DNA of 64,000 nt from Actinomycetota bacterium (GTDB taxonomy: Bacteria > Actinomycetota > UBA4738 > HRBIN12): positions 1 to 64,000 of the forward strand of contig VAYU01000031.1 of the NCBI GenBank assembly GCA_005884925.1, in the 5' to 3' direction. Position numbers and translations under genes: made by a program. This document shows positions 19,973-23,925 of this stretch, piece by piece (position 1 is the first letter of the stretch; every line of letters begins with the position of its first letter). Below the pieces are notes generated by a model. That model made no database searches. It saw only the letters and a program-made list of their open reading frames with translations, and was not told the origin of the DNA.

Positions 19973-20293
19973 GTGAAGACGCGACGGGTCACCGACCTGG
20001 TCCACTTCGAGGACGACGCCGCTCGCACCGAGATCCTCTACGAGACCCCACGGCTGTTCTCCCAGGTCGTGTGTGTCCAGGGGTCGCAGGGGATCGGGCC
20101 GATGTCTGACGCGAGCTCGGACGGGTTGCTCGTGGTCCTCACCGGGGAGATCGCGACGCAGATCGGCAAGGCGCGGGCGCGGATGCAGCAGTGGGAGTCG
20201 GCGCTCGTCCCTGCGGGCGAGGAGCTCACGCTCCGCAACGCCTCCGAGGAGCCGTCGGTGGTGCTCCTGGTGCTTGCGCCGCCGCCCGCCTAG
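19973..20293 (+). CDS. Small single-domain cupin
   Basis: 106 aa, one cupin barrel. Segments such as RLFSQVVCVQGSQGIGPM and SDGLLVVLTGEIATQIGK, then WESALVPAGEELTLRNASEEP, follow the two cupin motifs, but most of the metal-binding histidines are missing. It may therefore be a ligand-binding or structural cupin. GTG 19973 is the start that leaves a complete fold. The gene is divergent from pepA with about 120 nt between them. Its stop overlaps the stop of the convergent CytX gene. Function cannot be inferred. Confidence 0.75.
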   Translation: MKTRRVTDLVHFEDDAARTEILYETPRLFSQVVCVQGSQGIGPMSDASSDGLLVVLTGEIATQIGKARARMQQWESALVPAGEELTLRNASEEPSVVLLVLAPPPA

Positions 20294-21732
20294 GGCGTCT
20301 CGTCCGAGGCTGGGCGGCGGGGCAGGACCGCGAGGGCCACGACGAACGCCGCGGAGAAGCCGGGGATGCTCCCCCCGAGCGCCGAATCACCGACGAGCGG
20401 GAACGGAAGCCCGAGCCAACCGTGCACGATGTGCTCGAGGCCGGAGGTCCACCATCCGACGAGGGTCGTCGGCGCGCACCACTGGAAGACGACGAAGCCG
20501 ACCACCCACGGAAGGACGGCGCGCCACCGGATCCCCGATGGCGCGCCGTCGAAGAGCGCCTCCTCACCGAACCGGCCGTGCTCGCGGAGGCCCCAGTCGG
20601 CCAGGAACACGGCGAACAGCGGGACGAACACCGATCCGATCAGCAAGAGGAACCCCTCCAACGTCGCGGCCGCGTCGCTCCCGATCGCTGCCGCGATCGC
20701 GAGCCCCGCGGCCCCGACCGCTACGATCAGCGCGCGCTGGGACCACGCCGGGCGCGCGTTCTGCACGGTGATCGCGGAGGAATAGACGTTGGCCATCGCC
20801 TGGTCGGACTCGCCGACCAGGAGCGCCAACAGCACGACCCCGCCGCCGGCCACGGCGGCGATCGTCGTCCCGAGGTCCAGCACGTCCGTCCCGGATCCCG
20901 CCGCCAACACGAGCAGCGCTCCCAGCAGGTAGAACCAGACGTTCCCCAGCGCGTAGCCGGCCGCGGTGCCCACGAACGCCGCCCGCGGCTCACGTCCGAA
21001 CCGGGAGTAATCCGCGACGAGGGGGAGCCACGAGATCGGCATCGCGATCACGAGGTCCACGCCCAACCAGAATGGCAGCCCGCCCAGCCCGGGACGGGAC
21101 CAGATGGCGCCGAGATCAGCCCCGGCGAGGACCTTCACGGTGATCCAGACCGCGACCGCCGCAACGATCCACACGCCGAAGCGCTCCAACCACCTCCGGA
21201 CGGTGAAGATCGGGCCCGCGAGCGCGAGCGCCGTGCACACGACGGCCACGACGAGCATCCAGAGGAACGTCGCATCGAGACCGAACAGATCGACCGAGAC
21301 GGCGTTCGCGACCCGTCCCATCGCCCAGAACTCGAAGGCCGTCCACCCGATCAGCTGGACGAGGTTCGCAGCCGACGGAAGATAGGACCCGCGGAGCCCG
21401 AGTACCGGGCGGAAGAGCACCATCGATGGGACGCCGTCGCGGGCGCCGGCGGCCGCGACGAGCCCAAGCGGGACGCACCCGATCACGGTCCCGATCACGA
21501 TCGCGAGCACCGCCATCGGCAGGCCGAGTCCCGGAACGAGCAACGCCCCGCTCACCAGGACGAGGAGCCCGATCGACAGGTCGCCCCAGAGGACCGCCAG
21601 GTCCAGCCCGGAGAATCGTCGGAGTGCGTCCGGGACGGGGCGGATCCCCCAGGTGGGCGTCTCGCGTTCGATGGCGTGCTCGAGCCGTTCGGTGACCGAT
21701 GTCCCAGGTGCGATCGGTGTGATCGGTGTCAT
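20290..21732 (-). CDS. cytX: NCS1-family permease, probable hydroxymethylpyrimidine transporter (CytX)
   Basis: 480 aa with about twelve membrane helices. The NCS1 pattern is visible in FSGLDLAVLWGDLSIGLLV, WTAFEFWAMGRVAN and MPISWLPLVADYSRFGRE. CytX-type members import thiamine precursors such as hydroxymethylpyrimidine; the closely related CodB imports cytosine. A TPP riboswitch directly upstream decides in favour of thiamine-precursor uptake. The start ATG 21732 has GGAGG 6 nt upstream, and this site is inside the riboswitch 3' strand. No thi biosynthetic gene is near, so the organism may import pyrimidine for salvage. The convergent cupin gene ends at the same place. Confidence 0.9.
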   Translation of the reverse strand: MTPITPIAPGTSVTERLEHAIERETPTWGIRPVPDALRRFSGLDLAVLWGDLSIGLLVLVSGALLVPGLGLPMAVLAIVIGTVIGCVPLGLVAAAGARDGVPSMVLFRPVLGLRGSYLPSAANLVQLIGWTAFEFWAMGRVANAVSVDLFGLDATFLWMLVVAVVCTALALAGPIFTVRRWLERFGVWIVAAVAVWITVKVLAGADLGAIWSRPGLGGLPFWLGVDLVIAMPISWLPLVADYSRFGREPRAAFVGTAAGYALGNVWFYLLGALLVLAAGSGTDVLDLGTTIAAVAGGGVVLLALLVGESDQAMANVYSSAITVQNARPAWSQRALIVAVGAAGLAIAAAIGSDAAATLEGFLLLIGSVFVPLFAVFLADWGLREHGRFGEEALFDGAPSGIRWRAVLPWVVGFVVFQWCAPTTLVGWWTSGLEHIVHGWLGLPFPLVGDSALGGSIPGFSAAFVVALAVLPRRPASDETP

Positions 21733-21734
21733 GA

Positions 21735-21826
21735 GCTCCCTCCGCCGGTCCTGACCGGATCAGGTTCGAAGGGTCGCCGGTTCCGCAACCGGCCTCTCAG
21801 CCCGGTTCCACCGGGCTCCCCTGCAT
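21735..21826 (-). ncRNA. TPP riboswitch (THI element)
   Basis: On the minus strand the conserved THI core is present in order: GGGGAGCCCGG, GGGCTGAGAGG, a GCCGGTT/AACCGGC stem, then ACCCTTCGAACCTGATC and GCGGAGGGAG. The CUGAGA and GAACCUGAUC elements bind the pyrimidine and pyrophosphate ends of thiamine pyrophosphate. The final GGAGGGAG is also the ribosome binding site of the CytX gene, whose ATG is 3 nt beyond it. TPP binding should therefore hide the ribosome site and block translation. Confidence 0.95.
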
Positions 21827-21855
21827 CGGTTCCACGCTAGCACGAGGTCGAGCGA

Positions 21856-22305
21856 TCATCGCCGCCGCGGCCCGGATGCGATCACCGCTCCCCGGAGCCC
21901 CCGGGCGGCTCGCCGCATCAGCCAGCGGAGCACCGGCGCGTACAGCCGAGCAGCCAGCTCGCCGATCGCCGGCACCCGCAGGCGGACGTCCTCGATCCAG
22001 TCGAACCGCGTGCCGCCCGCCTCGGGCGTCAGGGTCCACGTGCCCTCACCCGCGACGACCCCCCCGTGACGCAGGACGAGCCGCCGGGGTGGATCCCAGC
22101 CGGTCACCTCCATCGCCTCCGTGAAGGGGAGCCCGAGGATCCTCGTCCGCACGGCGAGCCGGACGCCGACGCCCTCCCGGCGCGCAGACACGACCTCGAC
22201 GCGATCCGCGTCGAGCATCCAATCCGCCTGGCGCTCCCACGCGAGCAGGATCGCCCACGCCTCTTCGGGCGGACACGGGAGCGACGTTCCGACCCGGACG
22301 ATCAC
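21856..22305 (-). CDS. SRPBCC family protein
   Basis: 149 aa. An SRPBCC/START-like fold: SLPCPPEEAWAILLAWERQA near the N-terminus, ILGLPFTEAMEVTGWDPPRR in the middle and a C-terminal helix (LYAPVLRWLMRRAARGLRG). The fold binds hydrophobic ligands or acts in polyketide or lipid chemistry. GTG 22305 lies 3 nt after the hutH stop, so it is co-transcribed with hutH. It is distinct in sequence from the SRPBCC gene at 10.6 kb. The ligand is unknown. Confidence 0.8.
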   Translation of the reverse strand: MIVRVGTSLPCPPEEAWAILLAWERQADWMLDADRVEVVSARREGVGVRLAVRTRILGLPFTEAMEVTGWDPPRRLVLRHGGVVAGEGTWTLTPEAGGTRFDWIEDVRLRVPAIGELAARLYAPVLRWLMRRAARGLRGAVIASGPRRR

Positions 22306-22308
22306 GGG

Positions 22309-23838
22309 TCAACGGAGCGGACCGGTCACGCCTTCGACGGCCGCGACGAGGCTCCCGTCGTGCACGAGCTCGACCGCCGCCTCGATGTCCGGTCCGAACT
22401 CGCGGTCGTGTTCGACGAACGGGATGCGACCCCGGATCGCCTGCACCGCGGCGCGGGTCGCCGGGCCGGGCTCGAGAGGGGCGCGGAGGTCCAATGCCTG
22501 CGCGGCGGCAAGCGCCTCGAGCGCGAGCACGGTCTCGGCGTTCGCAGCGATCTCGCGCGCGTGCCGTGCGCTCGTCATCCCCATGCTGACGTGGTCCTCC
22601 TGGCCGGCGCTCGAGGGGATCGAATCGACGGATGCCGGATGGGCGAGCGACTTGCATTCGGAGACGATCGAGGCGGCCGTGTACTGGATCAGCATGAAGC
22701 CGCTGTTGAGCCCGCTCTCGGGGACCAGGAACGGCGGCAGGCCGTTGGAGGTCTTCGGGTCGAGGAGCCGGTAGAGACGCCGGTCGCTGATCGACGCGAG
22801 CGATACCAGCGACAGCGCAAGGGCATCCATCGCGACGGCGACCGGCATCCCGTGGAAGTTGCCGCCACTGCGGACGTCGTCGTCCTCGACGAGGACGATC
22901 GGGTTGTCGCTCACGCTGTTCGCCTCGATCGCCAGCACCTCGCGGACGTGCCGACAGGTGTCCCGGGTGGCGCCGTGCACCTGCGGGGCGCACCGCAGCG
23001 AATACGCATCCTGCACCAGGTGGGGAGACGCCCGGTGCGACTCGCGGATCGGGGACGCGTCCAACAGGAGACGGAGGTTCGTCGCGCTCGCGGCCTGCCC
23101 CGGGTGCGGTCGGAGGCGCTGGAGGCGCTCGTCGAAGGGCGCGTCGGTCCCGAGCGACGCCTCGATCGTCATCGCGGCGATCACGTCCGCGGCTCGGGCG
23201 AGCTGCTCGGAGCGAACCAGCGCGAGGGCGCCGATCGCGAGCATCCCCTGCGTGCCGTTGACGAGCGCGAGCCCTTCCTTCGCTTGCAGCTCGAGCGGAC
23301 GCAGCCCCGCTCGGCCGAGGCTCTCGGCTGCCGGCTCGGTGGCGCCGTCGCTCGTGAGCACCCGTCCGAGCCCGATCAACGGCAGGGCCAGACCGGCGAG
23401 TGGCGCGAGGTCGCCCGAGGCACCGAGGGAGCCCTGCTCCGGGACCGCCGGGACGATGTCGCGGTTCAGCATCTCGACCATCAGCTCGATCACCTCGGCG
23501 CGCACGCCCGAATGACCGAGCGCCAGGACGTGCGCGCGGAGCAGGAGCATCGCGCGCGCTTCCTCGCGCGACAGCGGTCGCCCGACCGCGGTCGCGTGGG
23601 AGGTGACGATGCCGCGCTGCAACGCCGAGCTCTGCTCGGGTGCGATCCGCGTATCGGCGAGCGCGCCGAAGCCGGTCGTGACGCCGTACATCGTGCGGCC
23701 GGCGGCGACGGCGCGCTCGACCACCTCGCGCGCGGCGCGCACGCGTTCGCGGGCGGGGCCCACGAACGCCACGTGGGCGCCGCGTGCCACCGCGACGACG
23801 TCCTCGAGCGTCAGCGGTTCCCCCACCGATACCGGCAC
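22309..23838 (-). CDS. hutH: Histidine ammonia-lyase
   Basis: 509 aa, the normal length. The self-forming MIO cofactor comes from Ala-Ser-Gly in EQGSLGASGDLAPLAG. TTGFGALADTR and NGTQGMLAIGALAL are conserved segments. The histidine in TSHATAVGRPL stands where histidase has its selectivity residue (tyrosine and phenylalanine lyases have His-Leu or Phe-Leu instead), so histidine is the likely substrate. The product is urocanate. No hutU, hutI or hutG gene is nearby, so the rest of the pathway must be elsewhere. GTG 23838 is my choice; the frame is open to 23874 and no strong ribosome site settles it. An SRPBCC gene follows after 3 nt. Confidence 0.9.
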   Translation of the reverse strand: MPVSVGEPLTLEDVVAVARGAHVAFVGPARERVRAAREVVERAVAAGRTMYGVTTGFGALADTRIAPEQSSALQRGIVTSHATAVGRPLSREEARAMLLLRAHVLALGHSGVRAEVIELMVEMLNRDIVPAVPEQGSLGASGDLAPLAGLALPLIGLGRVLTSDGATEPAAESLGRAGLRPLELQAKEGLALVNGTQGMLAIGALALVRSEQLARAADVIAAMTIEASLGTDAPFDERLQRLRPHPGQAASATNLRLLLDASPIRESHRASPHLVQDAYSLRCAPQVHGATRDTCRHVREVLAIEANSVSDNPIVLVEDDDVRSGGNFHGMPVAVAMDALALSLVSLASISDRRLYRLLDPKTSNGLPPFLVPESGLNSGFMLIQYTAASIVSECKSLAHPASVDSIPSSAGQEDHVSMGMTSARHAREIAANAETVLALEALAAAQALDLRAPLEPGPATRAAVQAIRGRIPFVEHDREFGPDIEAAVELVHDGSLVAAVEGVTGPLR

Positions 23839-23925
23839 GGCGGCAAGGCTACGGGCGGGGCGGCCCGCGGGCAAACCTCGCCGCTACACTCGGCCGAAGG
23901 ACGACGAGGGGAAGGGGTGCCGGCG

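Follow-up and report, generated by a model that had tools for sequence, protein, structure and literature searches.

The window, the whole 64,000-nucleotide stretch of DNA analysed here, carries on its minus strand a gene for a cytX-type NCS1 permease of 480 aa (20290–21732, with an ATG start at 21732), which matches TIGR02358 and PF02133. Ahead of cytX on the same strand lie an SRPBCC gene (21856–22305) and hutH (22309–23874). Among 30 cytX loci, this one included, the SRPBCC gene turned up in 9, and hutH in 3 that all belong to the same genus. A small cupin gene (19973–20293) converges on cytX, the two genes sharing 4 bases at their ends, and because cupin homologues occur in 18 of the 30 cytX loci (again counting our own), the cupin-cytX pairing looks conserved.

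A TPP riboswitch aptamer precedes cytX

The TPP riboswitch model RF00059 matched the minus strand at 21832–21720, the last 13 nt of the match lying inside the cytX coding sequence. The match covered model positions 1–105 of 105 and scored 61.4 bits, compared to a gathering score of 54.3 (E = 1.3e-9), and RF00059 was the sole Rfam family above its gathering score within the 64-kb window. Judged by its sequence, 21832–21720 is a full-length TPP riboswitch aptamer and would be expected to bind TPP. The initial annotation had proposed a minus-strand TPP riboswitch at 21735–21826, coordinates that cover the aptamer core, from three THI core motifs, and had staked the call on a significant covariance match to RF00059. 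All three motifs are present in the sequence, and the score given above bears the call out.

Read along the minus strand, P2 starts at 21822, CTGAGAG at 21800 and ACCTGATC at 21765; at the 3' end, CGGAGGGAG runs up to 21736 and is followed by CTC (21735–21733) and the ATG at 21732. The Rfam structure line gives CCTG (21761–21764) as the 5' strand of P4, the partner of the ribosome site. The aptamer resembles RF00059 in its full-length match above the gathering score and in its conserved motifs, and differs from it at P1 and at the closing G-U pair of P4, which here is a G.G mismatch that completes GGAGG. In place of the five-pair basal P1 helix expected of RF00059, the window has a contiguous P1 of 2 bp: three of the five pairs are marked as non-standard in the Rfam alignment, and only the inner two bases of the P1 5' strand GATGC (21823–21827) are paired, with 21736–21735. 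Within the TPP riboswitch family, P1 is the part that varies. For this reason, and because the model score was passed without P1, the element was kept in RF00059 despite its short P1.

The ribosome site of cytX lies within the aptamer core

The Shine-Dalgarno sequence GGAGG (21739–21743) lies in the 3' core of the aptamer, and its AGG is the 3' strand of P4. GGAGGGAG occupies 21743–21736, with CTC between it and the ATG; the gap to ATG 21732 is 6 nt from GGAGG, 4 nt from GGGA and 3 nt from GGAGGGAG. The start at this ATG is forced, because the frame upstream is closed by a TGA at 21762–21760, within the aptamer's ACCTGATC, and there is no ATG, GTG or TTG between this TGA and ATG 21732. In the first part of the gene, the sequence showed no later in-frame start. 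With the start forced, any ribosome site that the gene has would fall within the aptamer. The earlier claim that the 3' core contains the only ribosome site, 3 nt from the ATG, thus holds: the TGA bars an earlier start, GGAGG lies in the core, and the start codon comes directly after the core, so that the ribosome site further downstream which the initial annotation had thought damaging to its case is absent. Its distance of 3 nt is right when counted from GGAGGGAG.

In this genome the 16S gene has the 3' end GGATCACCTCCTTTCT, which is able to pair with GGAGG, and a spacing of 6 nt is within the genome's 4–9 nt peak before first ATGs. A ribosome-site census took in 145 gene-like frames, drawn from 304 kb of the genome. 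Strong sites lay 4–9 nt before 12 of 94 first ATGs, compared to 4–6 of 118–132 control codons. With all candidate ATGs considered, any excess was unclear (14 of 94 vs. 4–17 of 118–132 controls or, at a wider limit, 21 of 116 vs. 13–32 of 139–144), and a crude count within the window gave no excess (15 of 43 vs. 10–15 of 43–46). Ribosome sites are thus likely to be used in this organism, though modestly and not universally.

Layout of related aptamers

The comparative set was drawn from 139 core matches, of which 129 were distinct and 98 had the exact core pattern; 12 of the 98 were dropped because the start of P2 was not recognisable. The 86 usable loci, from the window's genome and its relatives, consisted of 51 with the direct layout, 28 remote loci and 7 in neither class. 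Sampled were aptamers listed to about E = 2e-10, listed same-order aptamers below that level, and loci chosen for cytX. The sample therefore leans to cytX, which makes up at least 20 of the 51 direct rows, and it includes the two loci of the window's own genome. Start codons of the relatives were called by rule, not taken from annotation. An ATG or GTG opening at least 200 codons was found 3–13 nt after GGGA at 54 of the 86 loci; at eight control offsets the same test found 2, 0, 3, 6, 8, 10, 9 and 13 of 86. The placement of a start codon after the core is thus far from chance among related aptamers.

The aptamer lies directly upstream of cytX in 13 of 20 same-order genomes (our own included), counting cytX hits that reach the N-terminal part. 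In the other 7 of the 20, no TPP element was found before cytX, even among Rfam matches to E = 1. Three related genomes, two of them of one genus, have a homologue of the window's SRPBCC gene followed by cytX, and no riboswitch was found between the two (L037, L039 and L040); set beside the window, they point to riboswitch gain or loss within the family. A weak TPP match of 37.5 bits, under the gathering score, lies beside a more distant cytX (L053:2874–3006).

Conservation and covariation of the aptamer

Set against either of two same-genus genomes, 86 of the 87 aptamer columns (98.9%) are identical. In the same genomes, identity is 80–81% in the 90 nt upstream, 70–72% in the first 90 nt of the gene, with gap columns counted, and 83.5% in the next 300 nt. 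The contrast between 98.9% and the 70–83.5% of the flanking stretches means that the aptamer is under selection. Alignment A1 comprised 24 rows, namely the same-order direct-class rows plus L035, with L070 left out. Standard pairs are formed by 85.6% of its cells. The covariation score was 0.182, compared to 0.078 for shuffled alignments (0 of 500 reached the observed score) and at most 0.055 for slid versions, against which the structure is favoured by having been taken from the first row. Four of five covariation measures were unmatched in 500 shuffles, and the fifth, pair types, was matched by 51 of 500. Changes on both sides occur in the outer P2 pair, P3a and P5; P3 changes on one side only.

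The C-G, C-G and U-A pairs of P4 are invariant in the 24 rows. The fourth pair, G-U in the consensus, is broken in 23 of the 24, in every case through a change of U to G, which makes the closing pair a G.G mismatch and completes GGAGG. Across the larger set, a purine stands before AGGGA (consensus U) in 46 of 51 direct loci, compared to 12 of 28 remote loci (P = 1e-5; the rows are related by descent, and the P values given here overstate their independence), and the consensus U is kept in 1 of 51 direct and 10 of 28 remote loci. Contiguous P1 has two pairs in the window and three in both same-genus neighbours (L034 and L035), and 48.3% of P1 cells are paired across the 24 rows. The mean P1 is 1.96 bp in direct and 2.86 bp in remote loci, a difference that is not significant (P = 0.14); a P1 of at least 5 pairs occurs in 3 of 51 direct vs. 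9 of 28 remote loci (P = 0.003). The P1 of direct loci is longer than that formed with permuted partners (1.96 vs. 1.19 pairs, 0 of 5000). Because P1 outdoes permuted partners and the direct and remote means do not differ significantly, we rejected the idea that direct loci have lost P1, and describe it instead as short.

A candidate promoter at the aptamer edge

The sequence TAGCGT (21839–21834), a candidate -10 box, sits in the 23 nt that separate the aptamer from the upstream gene; from its first base to model position 11 is 17 nt. The pattern TANNNT was found 12–26 nt before the aptamer, a bin that was set after the sequences had been seen, at 44 of 51 direct loci, compared to 5, 2, 1, 0 and 1 of 51 in five control bins; at remote loci it was found in the same bin in 21 of 28, compared to 2–10 in controls. 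A full sigma-70 consensus was sought, and no match was found. If TAGCGT is a -10 box, transcription would start at about 21827, at the aptamer edge, and the cytX leader may then be the aptamer alone.

The permease and thiamin synthesis

The best NCBIfam model for the permease was TIGR02358 (CytX, putative HMP transporter), at 276.6 bits (E = 3.7e-82). It is the best-scoring family across most of the protein, and the TPP element before the gene is a further point of likeness. The score is 33 bits short of the curated cut-off of 309.85 bits, and for this reason we call the protein CytX-type and not CytX. PF02133 scored 99.1 bits, the general NCS1 model 124.9 bits and the cytosine permease model 54.7 bits. 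Solved relatives are distant: the hydantoin permease Mhp1 scored 37.5 bits and a cytosine permease 33.3 bits.

The window's genome (2.7 Mb, 91.8% complete) contains thiL (TIGR01379, 276.0 bits) adjoining thiD (TIGR00097, 329.4 bits), and thiE (TIGR00693, 156.8 bits), all over their cut-offs. ThiC gave no hit in this 92%-complete genome, nor was it found in two same-genus genomes that are 84% and 86% complete. HK/ThiM likewise gave no hit in our genome. An apparent ThiG hit was rejected as a partial match, part of PdxS (PdxS 516.2 bits, over cut-off). The genome, 92% complete, thus has ThiE but yielded no ThiG or ThiM, and no source for the thiazole half of thiamin was found in it.

The finding of ThiD, ThiE and ThiL but not ThiC is as HMP salvage predicts, and the simplest reading of the gene content is that the organism is auxotrophic for HMP, which it would salvage by means of CytX. 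The genes cytX and thiC were seldom found together: in 120 genomes, our own included, 1 had both cytX and thiC, 35 had cytX only, 39 thiC only and 45 neither; outside our own order the numbers were 1, 14, 39 and 39, respectively. In these counts, which are uncorrected for kinship by descent, a genome was taken to have cytX if its best hit reached 196 bits, a limit that we set ourselves, and partial genes in G012, G024 and G060 are included. The permease most likely imports a thiamin precursor, and HMP is a sensible guess, given CytX as the best family and a genome in which ThiD, ThiE and ThiL were found and ThiC was not. The earlier proposal of probable thiamine-precursor import is therefore strengthened by the gene content and by the family ranking, and weakened by a TIGR02358 score below cut-off.

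Just one further TPP element was found in the genome. It precedes thiE (L002:1501–1614, which is G000:C25:52353–52466) and scored 53.4 bits, just under the gathering score of 54.3. It reads GGAGGGAGGACGATGG, with the same GGAGGGAG-ATG layout and the ribosome site in the core. Downstream of this element and thiE is an AIR-synthase-like gene with a weak match to ThiL and HypE; the full ThiL is encoded elsewhere.

Discussion

The switch design at cytX is of an already known kind. Barrick and Breaker (2007; PMC2258182) set out a class called direct translation attenuation, in which the start codon lies within 15 nt of the core; they describe it as commonest among TPP, preQ1 and SAM-I elements. In the window the ATG is 4 nt after GGGA, and the purine-rich 3' core is the ribosome site, as in that class, of which this cytX case is a further member. 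The mechanism proposed there is the same; the figure legend has a formed P1 switching helix, and the window's P1 is very short. In the account of E. coli tbpA (thiBPQ) in PMC11487190, reporter fusions and toeprints indicate that TPP hides the ribosome site. The likeness is that of a thiamin-uptake gene whose ribosome site is hidden by TPP, a matter of experiment for tbpA and of prediction for the window. The tbpA account also describes an effect on mRNA and an exchange of anti-P1 for P1, for which the window's P1 looks too short. In five Chloroflexi, transporters are more than half of the TPP-controlled genes, a finding tied there to missing thiamin biosynthesis genes (PMC3766115). Transporters of thiamin or its precursors are prominent among these genes, and cytX in the window is a gene of the same sort, although cytX is not named in the main text of that paper (0 occurrences). 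A search for papers joining the genome's possible class with thiamin and auxotrophy found none.

The explanation that we favour overall, and with good confidence, is that a TPP aptamer makes up nearly the whole cytX leader and hides the ribosome site when TPP is plentiful, and that the permease imports a thiamin precursor. The aptamer would be practically the entire 5' leader of the permease mRNA. When TPP is plentiful, its binding would lock the three-way junction, and P4 of the locked aptamer would hold the AGG of the sole Shine-Dalgarno sequence. In TPP riboswitch structures, the bases after AGG fall in the ligand-locked junction. 30S subunits would then be barred from starting at ATG 21732. 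When TPP is scarce, P4 would be open often enough for the permease to be translated, and the permease would bring in a precursor, likeliest HMP, that ThiD and ThiE would use in making thiamin phosphate. An off-switch is the best reading because the start codon is within 15 nt of the core (PMC2258182) and because of the tbpA case (PMC11487190). The initial annotation had stated as much, a translational off-switch with no separate expression platform. The start within 15 nt and the lack of a terminator-like site speak for it; the off direction is better put as probable, because the predicted ligand-free fold hides the ribosome site too, in another helix.

That fold raises the prospect of an element that switches poorly or inversely. 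ViennaRNA gave a ligand-free minimum of -57.4 kcal/mol, and the aptamer-constrained fold, at -51.0 kcal/mol, was 6.4 kcal/mol weaker. In the ligand-free fold, CCCUUCG (21773–21767) pairs with CGGAGGG (21744–21738), and the unpaired probability of the ribosome site is at most 0.01; enforcing the aptamer closes the AGG and leaves the first two Gs of GGAGG open. By this model the ribosome site would be hidden in both states, and neither the size nor even the sign of the response follows from the folding. Without ligand, a hairpin of the P2 3' strand and the core would lock the site, and TPP, by reforming P2, would leave a three-pair P4, with little effect or even more translation. The window can form all seven pairs of the alternative helix, and its ligand-free accessibility is among the lowest of the 51 direct loci. 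Several points make this outcome quite improbable. The median accessibility over those loci is 0.40, and with P2 enforced in the window the five ribosome-site bases are open with probabilities of 0.17–0.68. The complementarity is not clearly special to the direct design: all seven pairs are possible in 8 of 51 direct vs. 3 of 28 remote loci, and at least six in 24 of 51 vs. 9 of 28 (P = 0.24). Because this difference is not significant, the alternative pairing may be a family trait, and the alternative helix was rejected as a selected platform. Folding that leaves out tertiary contacts and the order of transcription is a weak predictor, and for TPP to turn on an importer of its own precursor would make little physiological sense. 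Even less probable is transcription attenuation, in which TPP would cut transcription short and the aptamer would contain the ribosome site only incidentally. Such attenuation may be over-represented in Chloroflexi, a possible home of this genome, according to PMC2258182, and the tbpA riboswitch lowers the mRNA level besides translation (PMC11487190). However, no terminator-like site was found in 21500–21950, and since the core ends only 4 nt from the start codon, a terminator would sit in the coding sequence.

Another reading keeps the switch as described and has the permease carry thiamin or another pyrimidine or nucleobase instead of HMP. The TIGR02358 cut-off was missed, the general NCS1 and cytosine permease models match too, the solved relatives, both distant, are Mhp1 and a cytosine permease, and a SAR11 CytX homologue could not be assigned a function in the work described in PMC11452348. 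We think this rather unlikely, given that the CytX model is far ahead (276.6 vs. 124.9 and 54.7 bits) and that TPP control and the missing ThiC point toward HMP.

Within the favoured reading of a ribosome site hidden by TPP, a more specific possibility is offered tentatively for our own order. The TPP riboswitch may there have been pared to an aptamer-only leader, with the -10 box abutting its 5' edge and the ribosome site as its 3' core. P1 would be largely given up and the last P4 pair traded for GGAGG, and P4 and the ligand-locked junction would by themselves do the switching, in place of the P1 exchange of well-studied TPP switches. A natural leader of about 100 nt with almost nothing outside the aptamer would be a clean subject for asking if a ligand-locked P4 alone blocks ribosomes. 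For the organism, a loosely named permease becomes a likely thiamin-precursor importer in a lineage seemingly unable to make HMP, and an HMP importer together with this seeming lack of HMP synthesis predicts reliance on neighbours for vitamin B1.
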